In this document: one piece after another, positions 25,643 through 34,762 of the stretch
Layout of the letters: the number at the start of each line of letters is the position of its first letter
Numbering within the stretch: the stretch's first letter is position 1
Assembly (NCBI RefSeq): GCF_010093445.1
Contig: NZ_PDWW01000012.1
Location: 1 to 64,000, forward strand
From: Pseudoxanthomonas japonensis
GTDB lineage: Bacteria; Pseudomonadota; Gammaproteobacteria; Xanthomonadales; Xanthomonadaceae
Reading direction: 5' to 3'
DNA length: 64,000 bases
Translations under genes and position numbers: made by a program
The notes under the pieces: generated by a model
Told to the model about the DNA's origin: nothing
Databases searched by the model: none
The model's input: only the letters and a program-made list of their open reading frames with translations

Positions 25643-25826
25643 CCGCTAGCCCTTCGGGCCAGCGGGTGACTTTTCTTTGTTGGCGCAAAGAAAAGTCACC
25701 AAAAGAAAGCGCCCTCCCCGACGAAGCAATCCCATCGTAGTGCTGCCATCGGGATTTTCCGACTCGCCATCCTGGCGAGGCCGAAAACGGCAGACATCCT
25801 TGTCCGCCGCCCTTCGGGTCTGGTGG
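25643..25826 (+). repeat. Structured repeat, copy C of the TTTTCTTTG family
   Basis: A run of hairpins after the acetyltransferase. First CCGCTAGCCC/GGGCCAGCGG (25643-25665). Then a perfect 15-bp stem, GGTGACTTTTCTTTG (25665-25679) with CAAAGAAAAGTCACC (25686-25700). Then a nested hairpin: outer TTTTC/GAAAA around CTCGCCA-TCC-TGGCGAG (25763-25779). Then GGCAGACA-TCCT-TGTCCGCC (25789-25808, one mismatch), ending in GCCCTTCGGGT. The same order of stems occurs twice at 57.2-57.65 kb with different stem sequences but the same loop type. Confidence 0.85.
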
Positions 25827-25870
25827 GTTCGCGGGAGCGGCGGTGTGGTCAAGCAAGGTCCGAATAGCTG

Positions 25871-25956
25871 CCGTCATCCCCGCGCAGGCGGGGACCCAGC
25901 GACTTCCGGCCATGGAAAGCAAAGGCACTGGGTTCCCGCTTTCTCAGGAATGACGG
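25871..25956. repeat. Fold-back element, unit 1
   Basis: Ends CCGTCAT and ATGACGG pair. Inside are an arm CCCCGC-GCAG-GCGGGG and a central stem ACCCAG/CTGGGT. A second side arm is imperfect in this copy. Equivalent elements lie at 26085-26170 and 26292-26378. Confidence 0.8.
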
Positions 25957-26084
25957 GCAGATGCTGCGTTGTTCAGAGAATCCAAGACGATCAGTGCCAG
26001 ACGGCGGACGTCCTTGTCCGCCGCCCTTCGGGTCTGGTGGGATCGCTGGTGCATCGATGCGGTCAAGCGAAGTCCGAATAACCT

Positions 26085-26170
26085 CCGTCATCCCCGCGAA
26101 GGCGGGGACCCAGCGACTTCCGGCTATGGAAAGCAAAGACACTGGGTTCCCGCTCTCGCGGGAATGATGG
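26085..26170. repeat. Fold-back element, unit 2
   Basis: Same layout as unit 1, with ends CCGTCAT and ATGATGG (one G-T pair). Here the second side arm is intact: CCCGC-TCTC-GCGGG. The first arm is CCCCGC-GAAG-GCGGGG. Confidence 0.8.
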
Positions 26171-26291
26171 GCAGACGCTGCGTTGTTCAGAGAATTCCAG
26201 ACGATCAGTGCCAGACGGCGGACATCCTTGTCCGCCGCCCTTCGGGTCTGGTGGGATCGCGGGAGCGGCGGTGTGGCTATTTGAGTAACCG

Positions 26292-26378
26292 CCGTCATCC
26301 CCGCGCAGGCGGGGACCCAGCGACTTCCGGCCACGGAAAGCAAAGGCACCGGGTTCCCGCTTGTCGCGGGAATGACGG
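26292..26378. repeat. Fold-back element, unit 3
   Basis: Same layout, with ends CCGTCAT and ATGACGG. The second side arm is CCCGC-TTGTC-GCGGG, again intact with a different loop from unit 2. The stretch just before this unit is 7 bases shorter than in the other two repeats. Confidence 0.8.
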
Positions 26379-26421
26379 GCAGACGGTGCGTTGTTCAGAG
26401 AATCACTGAAGATCAAAAGCG

Positions 26422-28824: not shown

Positions 28825-29946
28825 TCAGTCCTTGTCGGGCGGCGCAACCTGGCGCTCGGGTAGCGCCTCGCGCGTGCCGTCCAGCAGGCCGCGACTCAGC
28901 TGTCCCTTGTCGATGAAGAGCAGCTGCCCGGATTCGCCGCGCTTGATGCCGCTGTCGATGGCGATGATGCGGCCACCGTGGAAGCTCACTACTTCGTCCA
29001 TCGTGGTGTGCCCGACCACGATCCGCGCCAGGCCAAGCCGGTCGACGACGCGGCCCACGGCCGGGGTATCGAGCTCGCCATTGAAATAGCCGCGGTACCA
29101 GATCGGGCTGCGCTTGCCGTCGTACAGGCGCGCGGTCGCCGGATCGGCCTTCACCGTGTCCTTGGCGACGCCCAGCGAACCGCGGTACGTCGCGTTGGTG
29201 GCATCGATGCCGGTGACCAGGTCCAGGTTTTCCGGTGCGATGCCGCCATGCAGGAACAGCGTGTCGCCCAGCTTCAGCATCACCGGACGCGTGCGCAGCC
29301 AGCCGCCGATCACCGTGTCGGCGCCATACAGCGCGGAATAGGGACGGCCGAGCAGGCGCGCGACCTCGACATACTTCGGATTGATGTAGCGCAGGTCGTC
29401 GTAGAGCACCATGGTTTCATGGTTGCCCAGCAGGAAGTGCACCGCGCCGCCGGCGGCATGCGCTTGCTGCTGCAACTGGAACAGCAGCCAGAACACCTCG
29501 TTGACCTTGTCGCCGCGATCGAACACGTCGCCGGTGATGACCAGGTGGTCGCGACCGAGCGCCCAGTTGTCGTTGCCGTCGATCACGCGATGCGCGCGCA
29601 GCAGCTTCACCATCAGGTCGTACTGCCCGTGGATGTCGGACAGTGCGACGATGCGGCCGCCGGTGTACGGCACGGATTCCGGGTCCGCGACGTGGTTCGG
29701 AATCACCGCCGGTCGACCGTAGCCGCAACGCGGTGCGATCACGGTGTCCTTGCGTCGCTTGCGTTGCACGTCATGTTCGACCTTGCCGTCGCAGACCCAC
29801 CAGGCGTCATAGCGGCGCGCGGTCGTCTGGAACACGTACGGACCATCGTCTAGCGTCGCTGCGGGCTGTCCGGTGACCTCTTCTGCCACGACCGGCGACA
29901 GCCAGGCGAGGGCGAGACCGGCCGCAAGAAGGCGTCTGCGCATCAT
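28825..29946 (-). CDS. Exported calcineurin-like metallophosphatase
   Basis: A 373-residue phosphoesterase with a signal peptide (residues 1-21), so probably periplasmic. All PPP-type metal motifs are in order: DIHG (104-107), GDVFDRG (139-145), GNHE (174-177), HGG (233-235) and GHT (312-314), with SPIWYRGY near 280-287. This resembles the bacterial Shewanella-like group of protein/phospho-monoester phosphatases. The substrate is unknown. Its start overlaps the stop of the FecR gene (ATGATGA, four shared bases), so it is translated from the sigma-FecR operon. A phosphatase as third member of a FecI/FecR signalling operon is uncommon and may mark the function of the locus. Confidence 0.88.
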   Translation of the reverse strand: MMRRRLLAAGLALAWLSPVVAEEVTGQPAATLDDGPYVFQTTARRYDAWWVCDGKVEHDVQRKRRKDTVIAPRCGYGRPAVIPNHVADPESVPYTGGRIVALSDIHGQYDLMVKLLRAHRVIDGNDNWALGRDHLVITGDVFDRGDKVNEVFWLLFQLQQQAHAAGGAVHFLLGNHETMVLYDDLRYINPKYVEVARLLGRPYSALYGADTVIGGWLRTRPVMLKLGDTLFLHGGIAPENLDLVTGIDATNATYRGSLGVAKDTVKADPATARLYDGKRSPIWYRGYFNGELDTPAVGRVVDRLGLARIVVGHTTMDEVVSFHGGRIIAIDSGIKRGESGQLLFIDKGQLSRGLLDGTREALPERQVAPPDKD

Positions 29947-30962
29947 GGCGATTTACCCAGCACATGCGTGCCGTTGGCGGTGTGGTGTTCCGGGATGCCG
30001 TAGACCTCGCCCAGCGCGCCGATGAAGCCGTCGACGTCGTCGCCGCGGAAAACGCCGCTGACGCGCTGGGCGCCGAGTGCGGGGTCCGCCAGCACCACGC
30101 GGTTCGTGCTGTAGCGATTGAACTCGGCCACGGCCTCGGCGAGCGGCGTGTCGCTGAAGACCAGGCGTCCACTCAGCCATGCCGGGCGCGCCCCGGCGGC
30201 GACGGTCGTCGCGCGCATCTGCATGCGGCCTGCGGACAGGCGCGCCTGCTGGCCCGGCACCAGCACGCCCAGGCGCTGCACCGGCGCCTCGGCAGCCGCG
30301 CGTGCGCGCAGTTCCACGCTGCCTTCGTACAGGGCGACATCAGCCGCGCCGGCAACATGGGAAACCTCGAATTGCGTACCGAGGGCGCGGACGCTGCCGG
30401 CGTCGGTGACCACGTCGAACGGACGCGCGGCGTCCTTGGCCACCTGGAAGAAGGCGCGGCCCTGCTCCAGCACGATATGCCGGCCGCCACGGTCGTAGCG
30501 CACGCTGAGGTGCGTGCCCGCGTCCAGATCGACGCGGGAACCATCGTCCAACTGCACCGAGCGGCGTTCGCCCACCGCAGTCCGGTAGGCGGCTTCCGTG
30601 GGCGCCGTCAGGCGCAGCGCCGCAAAGGTGCCGACGGCCAGCAGCGCGAGCGTCGCGGCCATCGCGGCGGGCCAGCGTCGCCGCGCGGTGCGCGCCTGCA
30701 CCGGTGCGGCCTGCGGCGCACGCGAAGCCCCGGCGATGCGCCTGCCGATCTCCGGCGACGTCGCAAAGTCGCCGAACGAAGACCACAAGGCCTCCACGCG
30801 CGCATAGGCATCGCGGTGGTCGCGGCTGGCCTCCAGCCACTGCTGCCACGCCCGGCGGTCGCCTTCGCTGGCATCGTCGGCGCGCAGCCGCACGAACCAG
30901 CGGGTCGCCTGCTGGTCGACGCCGTCACCGCCATCGATGAGGGTAAGGTCCGGTCTGCTCAT
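29943..30962 (-). CDS. FecR-family anti-sigma factor
   Basis: A 339-residue membrane regulator of cell-surface signalling. Residues 19-60 are the cytoplasmic N-terminal domain that holds the sigma factor (WFVRLRADDASEGDRRAWQQWL, DHRDAYARVEALW). One membrane helix lies near 97-118. The periplasmic FecR domain (about 125-230: GERRSVQLDDGSRVDLDAGTHL, FFQVAKDAARPFDVVTDAGSVRALGTQFEV) follows. The C-terminal STN-like part (FSDTPLAEAVAEFNRYS) contacts the receptor. It overlaps the sigma-factor stop by four bases and the phosphatase start by four, so all three are coupled. Its partner receptor is probably the STN-domain TonB receptor transcribed divergently. Confidence 0.92.
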   Translation of the reverse strand: MSRPDLTLIDGGDGVDQQATRWFVRLRADDASEGDRRAWQQWLEASRDHRDAYARVEALWSSFGDFATSPEIGRRIAGASRAPQAAPVQARTARRRWPAAMAATLALLAVGTFAALRLTAPTEAAYRTAVGERRSVQLDDGSRVDLDAGTHLSVRYDRGGRHIVLEQGRAFFQVAKDAARPFDVVTDAGSVRALGTQFEVSHVAGAADVALYEGSVELRARAAAEAPVQRLGVLVPGQQARLSAGRMQMRATTVAAGARPAWLSGRLVFSDTPLAEAVAEFNRYSTNRVVLADPALGAQRVSGVFRGDDVDGFIGALGEVYGIPEHHTANGTHVLGKSP

Positions 30963-31507
30963 GGCTCCGCCAGGCGTGCCTGCAGGTGGAGCAGCGCGCG
31001 CATCATGTGTTTTTCCACCGCACTCACGCTGACCTGCAGCTGCCGCGCGATGGCGGTGTAGGTCATGCCTTCGTAGCGTTGCAGCAGGAACACCTGCCGG
31101 CAGCGCGGCGACAGTTCGTCCAGCGCCGACAGCAGGCGTTCCAGCCGCTCCCTGCTTGCGTAGACGTCGTCGGTGGCGGGTTCCTCACTGGGCAATTCGT
31201 GCAGGGTGTCGTCGAGCGGGTCGTGCAGCCCGGTGTGGTGGCTGCGTTCGCGCCGGAAACGGTCGCGCAGCAGGTTGGCCGCGATCCGCACCACGTAAGC
31301 CTCGGCGTGGTCCACCTGCGTAGGCGAGCGCACCAGGCGCATGAGGGCTTCCTGGGCCAGGTCCTCGGCATCCGCCTCGTGTTGCAGGTGCCGGCGGAAG
31401 TAGCGCACCAGCATCGGCCGGAAGCGCTGGGTATCGGCCGTCGCGGTGTCGTGGCCGGCTGCGGTGGCGGCGTCGCCACCGGCGGTGCGTTGTGGAATCG
31501 GATTCAC
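30959..31507 (-). CDS. ECF sigma factor, FecI type
   Basis: A 182-residue extracytoplasmic-function sigma factor. Region 2 is seen in YFRRHLQHEADAEDLAQEALMRLVRS, region 4 in YEGMTYTAIARQLQVSVSAVEKHMMRALLHL. It directs RNA polymerase to the divergent receptor gene when FecR releases it. I place the start at the GTG at 31507, because this gives a family-like length and leaves a divergent promoter region. The frame stays open to an ATG at 31696, but that start would overlap the receptor gene and add 63 residues without similarity. The start is therefore uncertain. The stop overlaps the FecR start (ATGA). Confidence 0.85.
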   Translation of the reverse strand: MNPIPQRTAGGDAATAAGHDTATADTQRFRPMLVRYFRRHLQHEADAEDLAQEALMRLVRSPTQVDHAEAYVVRIAANLLRDRFRRERSHHTGLHDPLDDTLHELPSEEPATDDVYASRERLERLLSALDELSPRCRQVFLLQRYEGMTYTAIARQLQVSVSAVEKHMMRALLHLQARLAEP

Positions 31508-31614
31508 GCGACGGGTGTCCGGAGGCTGCGGTGCGCAGAGAAAAGTAAGCGGAGGCACCGCGCGACGCAACCGCACGCGACGCAGTGAGGAATCGCCGAT
31601 GCGCTGCGTCTGCC

Positions 31615-31642
31615 TTGAAAGGGGAGCGCCATCCGATATCTC
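31615..31642 (+). promoter_or_regulatory. Candidate promoter of the STN-domain TonB receptor
   Basis: TTGAAA (31615-31620), 16 bases, then TATCTC (31637-31642), 33 bases before the ATG at 31676. The -35 is good for sigma-70 and the -10 poor; a FecI-type promoter is equally possible. No Fur-box pattern is visible in 31508-31675. Confidence 0.3.
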
Positions 31643-31675
31643 ACATTTCCCAGCACGTCCAAGGGGGACGACTTG

Positions 31676-34600
31676 ATGAAGACCACCACGCCGCACCGCC
31701 GCACCGTCATGTCACTGGCTCTGGCCACCGCCCTCGGCGCATCGCTGATGGCCGCGGCCCCGGTGTCGGCGGCGCAGACATCGTCCACCCACCAGTTCGC
31801 GGTCGGCAGCCAGCCGCTCGGCGATGCGCTCAACCGCGTCGCGCAGACGGCCGGCGTGCAGATCATGGTGCCGCCCGACCTGGTGCGCGGACGCACCGCA
31901 CCCACGCTGTCGGGGCAGTACACCGTCAACCAGGCGCTGGACAAAGTGCTGGACGGCAGCGGCCTGACCCATCGCAGCACGCGTGGCGGCGTCATCACGG
32001 TGGCGCGCGCGCAGGAGACCACGACACCCGCGAAAGCCCCGGCACCGGCACCGAAGCCCGTCCCGGCGGCCGCGGACAATCCTCCCGACACGCAGGACCT
32101 GGCCGCCGTGCAGGTGACCGGCTCGCGCATCAAGCGCGCGGAGATCGAAGGCCCGTCGCCGGTCACCATCATCACCGCGCAGCAGATCGAGGCCGAAGGC
32201 CATGCCACGGTGTTCGAGGCGCTCGACTCGCTGGTCATGGCCGGCGGCGCCGTCGAGACGGAATTGTCGGGTGGCTTTTCCGCCAATGCCCACCCGCTCA
32301 ATCTGCGTGGCCTGGGACCCGGGCGCTCGCTGCTGCTCATCGACGGGCGCCGCGCCGCCGACTATCCGTTTCCCTACGGTGGACGGAGCAATTTCCAGAA
32401 TTTCGGCAACATTCCCTCGGGTGCGGTGGAACGGATCGAAGTGCTGGCGGGCGGTGCGTCCGCGATCTACGGCGCCGATGCCGTGTCCGGCGTAGTGAAC
32501 ATCGTCCTGAAGAAGGGTTATGAAGGCGACGAGGTCAAGCTGCGCGGCGGTACCAGCACGATGGGCGGGCGGGATCGCGTGGACCTGCAATGGACGGGCG
32601 GGAAAACGGGAGAGCAGTGGGGGCTGACCTACGCGTTCCAGTACTACGCGCAGGAGCTCCTGTACGGAACGCAGCGAGACGACTGGGATGCCCGCCTCGA
32701 TCCCACCGCTGATCCGCGCACCGGCGTGGTGCCGCCGACGGGCCTGCGCATCCGCCTCGGCGCGGACAGCAGCAGTCGGCCGCTGTGGCAGTTTCCGGAG
32801 GGCACGTGCGAGCAGTGGGGCGGCGACTTCCATGACACGCCCTACCTGCGCATCAGCGGCGGCCAGGTGCGGGACATGGGCAATTTCTGCGGGTACTGGG
32901 GCGATGCACGCAACCAGAGCCTGAGCAAGGGCAAGAACGAACTGGCCGGCTACCTGTTCGGCACGTGGACGTTCTCGCCCGACCTGGAGGGCTGGGCGTC
33001 GTTGCAGGCGTGGCACGCGAAAGCGACGTCGAACGGCGGCTTCGAAAGCATCACCGGTCCGCACACCAATGGGGTGGGTCGCATCGGCGCCTTCTACGAT
33101 CCGCAGTTCGGCACCGTGATCGGCCTGGACCGTTATCTGACCCCGTACGAACTGGGCGGCGTCTCGGCAATGGACCAGCACTACAAGGAATTCTCCGTGG
33201 ACGTGGCCGCGGGGCTGCGCGGGCGCGTTGGCCGGTTCGATTGGGAAGCGACGCTGAGCCATGCGGAGTACTACTTCGAACGCAACCGCCGCCGCATGGT
33301 GGGTGACCGGGTGAACGAATGGTTCTTCAGCGAGCAGCAGGGCGTCACCGGTAGCGGCGATCCGATCTACCAGTTGAACCTGGATCACTGGCTGAGGCCA
33401 CTCACTGCCGCAGAGTACGCGTCACTGTCGACCATCGCCCATTACGAGGCCGAGTCGTGGGTGGACACGGCCAGTTTCGTGATGACGGGCGATCTGTTCG
33501 ACCTGCCTGCGGGCCCGGTCGGTTCGGCCTTCATCGTCGAGGCCAGTCGGCAGGGCTACGACATGGACAGCGATCCGCGCGTGCAGCCCGATGTGGCGGA
33601 GCTGTACAACCTCACCGGCACGAATGGCGGCGGCGACCGCGAGCGCTATGCCCTGGGTGTCGAGTTCAGCATCCCGCTGCACGAAACGCTCAAGGCGAGC
33701 CTGGCCGGGCGCTATGACAAGTACAACGACATCACCGACCTGGGGGATGCGAAGACGTGGAATGCCGGCCTGGAGTGGCGTCCCGTGGACTCCCTGCTGG
33801 TCAGGGGCAGCTACGCGACCAGCTTCAAGGCGCCGGACATGCACTGGGTGTTCAGCGAAGGCAGCGGCAGCTTCGGTTCGCACACCGATGCCCTGCGCTG
33901 CATTTCCGCGGGCGACAATCCGGATTGCGAGGGTTACGACTTCTCGATGATGACCATCTCGCGCGGCGACGCGGCGCTGGAAGAGGAGACCGGGAAGTCG
34001 TGGGGCATCGGCTTCGTCTGGGACGTCACCGACGGCATGTCCGTCAACGTGGATTACTGGAACATCGAACTGGACGGCGCCATCGACCTGCTCGAGGCGG
34101 ACAACGTGCTGGCCGACGAGGCGGGCTGCCGCACCGGTCTCCGGCTGGACGGATCGCCGTTCGGGTTCGCCGCCGATTCCGGCTACTGCCAGACGATCCT
34201 GTCGCGCGTGACCCGCGTAGCGGATCCTGGCGATCCGAACGGTCGGGTCACCCAGGTCCTGTCCGGACCGATCAACCAGTCCTATCTGCGCGTGGCGGGC
34301 ATCGATGCCGGCTTCCGCTGGAGGATGCCGACGGATCGCTTCGGCCGCTTCACGTTTGGGCTGGACTGGTCGCACACGCTGGCGTCCGAGCGCCAGTTGT
34401 ACGCGGGTGATCCGGTGGATCGCGACTGGCGCGACGACCCGGAAAACCTGGACTTCCGCAGCAAGGCCAAGGCATCGGTGAGCTGGCGCGGCGGCGACTG
34501 GAGCGCCAACCTGTCGAGTACGCGCTACGGCAGCCTGCCCAAGCTGGACAGCGAGGCGGGCAGGACCGGAGTCCACTTCCTGTGGAACGCCAATCTCGGC

Positions 34601-34762
34601 AAGCAGATCACCGACAAGGCGAAGGTCACGTTCTACGTGAACAACCTGTTCAACAACCTGCATCCGGAAGACGAAACGAACGGCGACTTCCCGTTCTTCT
34701 ACGATGCCTACAACCCGATCGGCCGCGAGGTCGCCGTGCAGTTCGAGTACACGTTCCACTGA
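31676..34762 (+). CDS. TonB-dependent receptor with STN signalling domain
   Basis: A 1028-residue outer-membrane transducer. After the signal peptide (to about residue 33, VSAAQ) comes an STN domain (about 38-110: HQFAVGSQPLGDALNRVAQTAGVQI, LSGQYTVNQALDKVLDGSGL) that contacts a FecR-type anti-sigma factor. A Pro/Ala linker leads to the TonB box and plug (VQVTGSRIKRAEIEGPSPVTIIT to about 290, with RIEVLAGGASAIYGADAVSG) and a long beta-barrel ending VQFEYTFH. The terminal His after Phe is a slight departure from the usual last aromatic. The ATG at 31676 has AAGGGGG upstream; a TTG one codon earlier is rejected. It diverges from the sigma-FecR-phosphatase operon and is its likely partner. The ligand is unknown. 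Confidence 0.93.
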   Translation: MKTTTPHRRTVMSLALATALGASLMAAAPVSAAQTSSTHQFAVGSQPLGDALNRVAQTAGVQIMVPPDLVRGRTAPTLSGQYTVNQALDKVLDGSGLTHRSTRGGVITVARAQETTTPAKAPAPAPKPVPAAADNPPDTQDLAAVQVTGSRIKRAEIEGPSPVTIITAQQIEAEGHATVFEALDSLVMAGGAVETELSGGFSANAHPLNLRGLGPGRSLLLIDGRRAADYPFPYGGRSNFQNFGNIPSGAVERIEVLAGGASAIYGADAVSGVVNIVLKKGYEGDEVKLRGGTSTMGGRDRVDLQWTGGKTGEQWGLTYAFQYYAQELLYGTQRDDWDARLDPTADPRTGVVPPTGLRIRLGADSSSRPLWQFPEGTCEQWGGDFHDTPYLRISGGQVRDMGNFCGYWGDARNQSLSKGKNELAGYLFGTWTFSPDLEGWASLQAWHAKATSNGGFESITGPHTNGVGRIGAFYDPQFGTVIGLDRYLTPYELGGVSAMDQHYKEFSVDVAAGLRGRVGRFDWEATLSHAEYYFERNRRRMVGDRVNEWFFSEQQGVTGSGDPIYQLNLDHWLRPLTAAEYASLSTIAHYEAESWVDTASFVMTGDLFDLPAGPVGSAFIVEASRQGYDMDSDPRVQPDVAELYNLTGTNGGGDRERYALGVEFSIPLHETLKASLAGRYDKYNDITDLGDAKTWNAGLEWRPVDSLLVRGSYATSFKAPDMHWVFSEGSGSFGSHTDALRCISAGDNPDCEGYDFSMMTISRGDAALEEETGKSWGIGFVWDVTDGMSVNVDYWNIELDGAIDLLEADNVLADEAGCRTGLRLDGSPFGFAADSGYCQTILSRVTRVADPGDPNGRVTQVLSGPINQSYLRVAGIDAGFRWRMPTDRFGRFTFGLDWSHTLASERQLYAGDPVDRDWRDDPENLDFRSKAKASVSWRGGDWSANLSSTRYGSLPKLDSEAGRTGVHFLWNANLGKQITDKAKVTFYVNNLFNNLHPEDETNGDFPFFYDAYNPIGREVAVQFEYTFH

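Follow-up and report, generated by a model that had tools for sequence, protein, structure and literature searches.

A Shewanella-like phosphatase as a recurrent member of a FecIRA-type surface-signalling locus in Pseudoxanthomonas japonensis and related bacteria

Surface-signalling systems of the FecIRA and PupIRB type combine an extracytoplasmic function (ECF) sigma factor, a FecR anti-sigma factor and a TonB-dependent transducer carrying an STN domain, and excerpts of a review (PMC9249621) treat such signalling as control by iron carriers. The FecIRA-like HemI-HemR-HemAD system of Stenotrophomonas maltophilia is a haemin system with a predicted Fur box, and the word 'phosphatase' is absent from the main text of its description (PMC12772443). 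A TonB receptor next to a phosphate-releasing enzyme, a phytase, is reported from Citromicrobium in passages of PMC3400609, the main text of which does not mention FecR. Here we describe a locus in a 64,000-nucleotide (nt) stretch of Pseudoxanthomonas japonensis (contig NZ_PDWW01000012.1; hereafter the window), which at positions 28825-34762 holds the sigma factor, FecR and STN transducer of the FecIRA/PupIRB type, with their domains, and a gene for a Shewanella-like phosphatase. Unlike FecIRA and PupIRB, it has the phosphatase as a fixed fourth member, its sensor operon diverges from the receptor gene and no Fur site was found in it; unlike the Citromicrobium pair, it has an enzyme of a different family. 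We propose that this is a FecIRA-type surface-signalling locus with a periplasmic phosphatase, serving ligand-induced import and dephosphorylation of a phosphorylated compound, a reading that we hold to be about evenly balanced between right and wrong. No such locus is described, by title or opening of the abstract, among the matches listed from the open-access literature; metallophosphoesterase, FecR, TonB-dependent and sigma factor occur together in PMC10434189, an article on iron in Bacteroidetes that was among the matches listed.

Three open reading frames (ORFs) lie on the minus strand (28825-29946, 29943-30962 and 30959-31696). Neighbours among them share 4 nt, and both junctions read GCCATGA. 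The initial annotation had described these overlaps and a divergent STN-domain TonB receptor; ORF coordinates and junction sequence bear out the first (ATGA at 29943..29946 between FecR and phosphatase and at 30959..30962 between sigma factor and FecR, minus strand), and domains and coordinates the second. For the sigma gene, GTG 31507, where the coding-score caller places it, is the most likely start, rather than the full ORF end at 31696, so that sigma and receptor genes do not overlap; the receptor starts at ATG 31676, preceded by AAGGGGG, and 168 bp separate the divergent genes. With this start, the FecI-type ECF sigma factor, assigned by its domains, has 182 residues (30959..31507, minus strand). 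It is followed by a FecR-type transmembrane anti-sigma factor of 339 residues (29943..30962, minus strand), in which hydropathy marks a hydrophobic, transmembrane stretch at residues 98-116 (30615..30671), and then by a metallophosphatase of 373 residues (28825..29946, minus strand), identified from the ORF list, phmmer, Pfam, alignment and predicted fold. The TonB-dependent transducer/receptor (31676..34762, plus strand; 1028 residues), delimited by domains, the coding-score caller and orthologues, contains an STN signalling domain at 31859..32008 and a plug domain at 32147..32494, both from Pfam. By a Pfam scan, the locus encodes a complete set of FecIRA-type signalling proteins and, in addition, a calcineurin-like phosphoesterase.

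Receptor orthologues, defined by at least 65% identity to the window receptor and an alignment starting at residues 1-9 (the two best candidates per genome being scored), were present in 9 of 395 genomes of the family (G000, G098, G052, G568, G633, G700, G711, G731 and G758). The next-best receptor matches had at most 54% identity, with alignments starting at residues 82-139. The STN domain exceeded its cut-off in all nine orthologues and was absent from the ten scanned receptors of the 54% group, and in a tree the nine STN receptors formed one clade (100/100) against eight receptors of that group. FecI, FecR and the phosphatase were all present in each of the eight loci that lie on a single contig. 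In the ninth genome (G633) receptor, FecI-like and FecR-like ORFs share a contig on which the receptor ends 112 nt before the contig end, and on another contig a phosphatase starts 200-320 nt from the end, in the orientation expected for receptor followed by phosphatase. The initial annotation had named absence of the phosphatase from most homologous loci as an outcome that would speak against it; the opposite was found, with a phosphatase in eight of eight. Because the same set recurs in other genera, the four-gene set is more than a chance association. Around the four other FecR loci of the window's genome, no such phosphatase was found within the 16 kb taken around each.

The orthologous loci come in two layouts. 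The receptor diverges from a FecI-FecR-phosphatase operon in the window, in L081 (G098) and in L168 (G568); L081 retains both 4-nt overlaps, and in L168 FecR and phosphatase are spaced by 12 nt. In L090, L159, L160, L162 and L165 (genomes G052, G700, G711, G731 and G758), the receptor is instead followed by the phosphatase, divergently from FecI-FecR, with a gap of 90-129 nt in four loci and 939 nt in L165. The gene caller starts too early in some loci (L081, L090). A third order, FecI-FecR-receptor-phosphatase, occurs in L092 (G156), from a different family; its phosphatase (L092:6475-8055) carries N-terminal ankyrin repeats and has, by eye, a lipoprotein-like start. L169:7339-9168 (G663) holds C-terminal parts of a receptor and a FecR next to a full-length phosphatase ORF and is apparently a decayed copy of the module.

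The phosphatases of these loci do not form one clade. For their tree we left out L037 and L173 (duplicates of L190 and L042), the truncated L052, L054 and L074, and L076-L080, and trimmed long spurious N-terminal extensions to the model envelope. The window and L081 enzymes group with those of Thermomonas, Stenotrophomonas and Xanthomonas (100/98 and 99/96), the G568 and G663 enzymes with two unlinked ones (94/91), and those of the receptor-phosphatase layout are placed elsewhere (100/99), with enzymes paired to another receptor class. Constraining the linked phosphatases to a single clade was rejected (approximately unbiased (AU) test, p 1.7e-4), the groups being taken from gene order although a quick tree had been viewed beforehand. 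The unlinked enzyme L036 falls between the window and L081 phosphatases, which requires that linkage was lost once, or gained separately, at that point. In the FecR tree, window and L081 join at 98/100, and L168 joins them at 92/89. Hidden paralogy with loss is a possible alternative history; on either account, the phosphatase was kept or regained at the locus through replacement. The trees also bear on hitch-hiking, that is, a mobile housekeeping phosphatase gene that landed in the locus with no functional link. The family does occur in many contexts: in Thermomonas-like genomes the gene lies between genes of sizes fitting yebC-ruvC-ruvA and a GNAT gene, and the window locus has the same neighbourhood (the names yebC-ruvC-ruvA are what we take the window's own neighbours to be). 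However, chance would hardly bring different phosphatase lineages, in two gene orders, to loci whose receptors form one clade, or leave eight of eight such loci with a phosphatase; hitch-hiking is already disfavoured and in our estimate very improbable.

The nearest solved relatives of the window phosphatase are 1v73, 2z72 and 2zbm, all of the cold-active protein-tyrosine phosphatase (CAPTPase) of Shewanella. Phmmer aligned it to 1v73 at E 6e-90 across residues 30-366, and its predicted model (mean predicted local distance difference test score, pLDDT, 89.6) matched 1v73 with Z 44.8 over 327 residues (root-mean-square deviation 1.8); in the structural ranking, 1v73 and its two sister entries were followed by PP1/PP2A-type entries at Z about 20. 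As far as sequence and model tell, the enzyme belongs, N-terminal beta part included, with the Shewanella-like phosphatases (Shelphs), a group name also applied to plant and parasite enzymes in excerpts of PMC535813. The PPP metal motifs SDIHGQ, GDVFDRG, GNHE, HGG and GHT are present, and the metal-site residues are invariant or at least 90% conserved in a 23-row alignment; C52 and C74 are invariant in an 11-row alignment and are not among the conserved positions of the 23-row one. The preference of CAPTPase for phosphotyrosine is attributed to Tyr161 in passages of PMC5454105, which also give WipA as active although it has no equivalent of this residue. By a hand count along the pairwise alignment, Tyr161 corresponds to window Y187, which is invariant in the 23 rows. 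The window enzyme thus shares with CAPTPase its whole-length sequence, predicted fold, metal motifs and Tyr161 equivalent; here, by contrast, its gene is linked with a TonB receptor and a regulator of surface signalling. No physiological role of a bacterial Shelph was found in the literature searched, part of which was available in excerpt. The start of the protein is rich in Arg, residues 6-24 form a hydrophobic stretch in a hydropathy plot, and by inspection the N-terminus looks like an export signal of about residues 1-21 (29884..29946, minus strand), so that export, as the initial annotation had it, appears right. As other assignments, ApaH diadenosine tetraphosphatase was rejected on equivalog scores below the cut-offs (28.9 against 176 and 22.7 against 222.85 bits), and a phytase because, in Pfam, Metallophos was the sole family to exceed its cut-off.

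As a whole, the phosphatase family is patchy: it was found in 73 of 395 genomes of the family (E 1e-70), 5 of 369 genomes of the class (E 1e-40) and one of 109 genomes of the order of G547, each survey with its own E threshold. Among 98 phosphatase loci (L036-L075, L081-L100 and L155-L194 minus L037 and L173), a receptor was the immediate neighbour in 17, against 14 of 601 genes at least four places away (Fisher p 1.6e-4, which overstates the case since the rows are related). The receptor directly adjoined the phosphatase without FecI-FecR in 11 loci, namely Rheinheimera L043, Glaciecola L053, two gammaproteobacterial metagenome-assembled genomes (L045, L068) and the family loci L082, L158 (gap 813 nt), L161, L163, L164, L166 and L188; STN was found in none of the nine receptors scanned among them (L164 and L166 lay outside the scan). 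The steadier partner of the phosphatase is therefore the receptor; such pairs have various regulators nearby, FecI-FecR with STN being one. The phosphatase could alternatively be a periplasmic regulator that tunes signalling by dephosphorylating a protein, for instance FecR, the receptor or a Tyr-phosphorylated envelope protein, while the ligand itself would carry no phosphate. That the closest solved relative is a protein-tyrosine phosphatase with its Tyr161 equivalent invariant, that the window phosphatase is joined to sensor genes, and that relatives adjoin signalling genes (a response regulator and histidine kinase in L177, winged helix-turn-helix (wHTH)-PD40 regulators in L045 and L053, an ECF sigma gene in L155) all fit such a role; we nonetheless find it unlikely, for the receptor-phosphatase linkage persists without FecI-FecR and STN, and in five of the eight orthologous loci the phosphatase sits with the receptor, not the sensor pair.

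In the sigma factor, Sigma70 regions r2 and r4_2 exceeded their cut-offs, as did the ECF superfamily model TIGR02937 (92.7 against 42.9 bits), and the FecI equivalog model was not reached (75.8 against 260 bits). FecR passed with DUF4880 and FecR domains, had FecR_C below cut-off (18.4 against 24.4 bits) and matched PDB entry 6ovk at E 8e-21. The receptor has STN (PF07660, 47.5 against 28.4 bits, residues 63-112), plug and barrel domains, and its STN and plug match the FecA, FoxA and CntO entries of the PDB. These matches favour an ordinary iron-carrier system, in which the phosphatase would act on a phosphate-bearing iron chelate such as ferric phytate or on something unrelated, and so does the finding that FecIR-STN systems mostly serve iron carriers in the excerpts of PMC9249621 and PMC12772443. 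The PDB sequence matches of the receptor, however, end by residue 373, leaving a barrel without a close solved siderophore receptor and a ligand that cannot be read from the nearest PDB receptors, and Pfam recognised none of the four genes as one for iron making, reduction or import. Neither the E. coli nor the Xanthomonas Fur-box consensus scored better at the locus than in shuffles, in agreement with the initial annotation; the three further FecI loci tested in the window's genome (L238-L240) lack a Fur box as well, so that its absence is uninformative and does not rule out iron. The earlier wording 'instead of an iron carrier' thus loses its argument from the Fur box, and we rate the iron-carrier explanation as rather improbable on the remaining evidence.

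Upstream of the receptor gene, comparison of the orthologous loci revealed a promoter-like element, TGAGG-N15-GCGTCT (31586..31611, plus strand). It stands in this position at constant spacing in nine of nine loci, with two copies in L081. Base composition would give about 5 per 100,000 intergenic strands of such size, which argues that nine of nine is not chance; the nine loci are, however, related. Its form resembles that of ECF promoters. Extended by GC at its 3' end, it has one copy in the window's genome, and among 136 other loci (1.41 Mb) the element was found in L219 and L222 alone. Additional copies lie several kb from the receptor at L090:5324, L159:11332 and L160:11612, with no clear gene downstream.

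In the mechanism that we propose, an extracellular ligand would bind the STN receptor, STN would signal to FecR, and FecR would free or activate the FecI-type sigma factor, which would transcribe the receptor gene from the TGAGG-N15-GCGTCT element; much importer would then be made solely by cells meeting the ligand. The receptor would then import the phosphorylated ligand to the periplasm, where the Shelph phosphatase would strip the phosphate, leaving free phosphate and the dephosphorylated product to be taken up across the inner membrane. Whether joined to the sensor genes, as in the window, or to the receptor, as in other loci, the phosphatase fits an enzyme acting on receptor cargo, and the imported substance may well be phosphorylated. 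Thus the suggestion of the initial annotation that a phosphorylated ligand is sensed and dephosphorylated in the periplasm survives in part: a phosphatase in eight of eight loci, the enzyme class and the export signal agree with it, but the enzyme goes with the receptor and not with FecI-FecR, as its place downstream of the receptor in five of the eight loci and the pairs without FecI-FecR indicate. If the proposal is true, a conserved phosphate-releasing fourth member would extend FecIR-STN signalling to organic phosphorus and give bacterial Shelph phosphatases a natural, testable context.

Several observations weigh against this proposal. In 81 of the 98 phosphatase loci no receptor is next door, and within the family the phosphatase is directly beside a receptor in 12 of 47; since most family phosphatases are placed otherwise, the enzyme also serves other purposes. 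The locus gives no indication of the cargo and includes no inner-membrane transporter. Exact copies of the promoter-like element number three in the window's genome (the two elsewhere being those of L219 and L222), against the 2.8 that base composition predicts, and with such a chance-like count the weight of the element lies in the constancy of its position across the nine loci; L092 lacks it. A second exact copy occurs within the sigma gene, on the coding strand, in seven of the nine orthologous loci (L168:6357, L090:12846, L159:3732, L160:4093, L162:12246, L165:3655 and L214:1472), and the window (31162..31187, minus strand, ACGTCT) and L081 have it with one mismatch. This copy may drive FecR and the downstream genes from within the sigma gene, or simply be conserved coding sequence. 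Last, no Pho box stands out: the best site agrees at 12 of 18 positions with what we take to be the consensus, a score equalled by 27 of 300 shuffles.

The nearest characterised relative makes a phosphoprotein or phosphopeptide as plausible a ligand as phytate or nucleotides. A more specific possibility, which we regard as doubtful, is that the locus is a dedicated, self-inducing system for uptake of phosphopeptides or phosphoprotein fragments and that this is a natural role of bacterial Shelph tyrosine phosphatases. All hints of it are weak. The enzyme's characterised relative dephosphorylates phosphotyrosine (excerpts of PMC5454105). In the Rheinheimera pair L043 a prolyl-oligopeptidase gene follows the phosphatase-receptor pair, and among twelve loci of the nearest STN-less receptors such a gene lies beside the receptor in L234 and past a second receptor in L235; the neighbours in the twelve, which were partly scanned, held no further case. 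These S9 peptidase genes hint weakly at a peptide-like cargo. Should the phosphopeptide reading be true, FecIR signalling would serve scavenging of organic phosphate and peptides.

The genes around other members of the phosphatase family vary. At L045:9702-11789 and L053:2257-4446, a wHTH regulator bearing a PD40 propeller lies beside the receptor-phosphatase pair, and L043 and L047 have look-alikes of this regulator by eye. At L177:7677-11002 genes for an OmpR-type response regulator and a 2CSK_N histidine kinase come after the phosphatase gene, as do genes of sizes matching that regulator and kinase in L083, L178 and L182. In L155, L156 and L167 the phosphatase gene diverges from an ECF sigma gene that overlaps an ORF of 162 residues, which had no Pfam match in L155, the one scanned. 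The Bacteroidota neighbours (a bile-acid symporter, a deformylase, a short-chain fatty-acid transporter and an amidohydrolase) show no shared theme indicating a ligand. Elsewhere in the window, at 25677-26416, similar peptide motifs recur in the overlapping ORFs of the two strands, suggesting that short dispersed intergenic repeats are clustered there.

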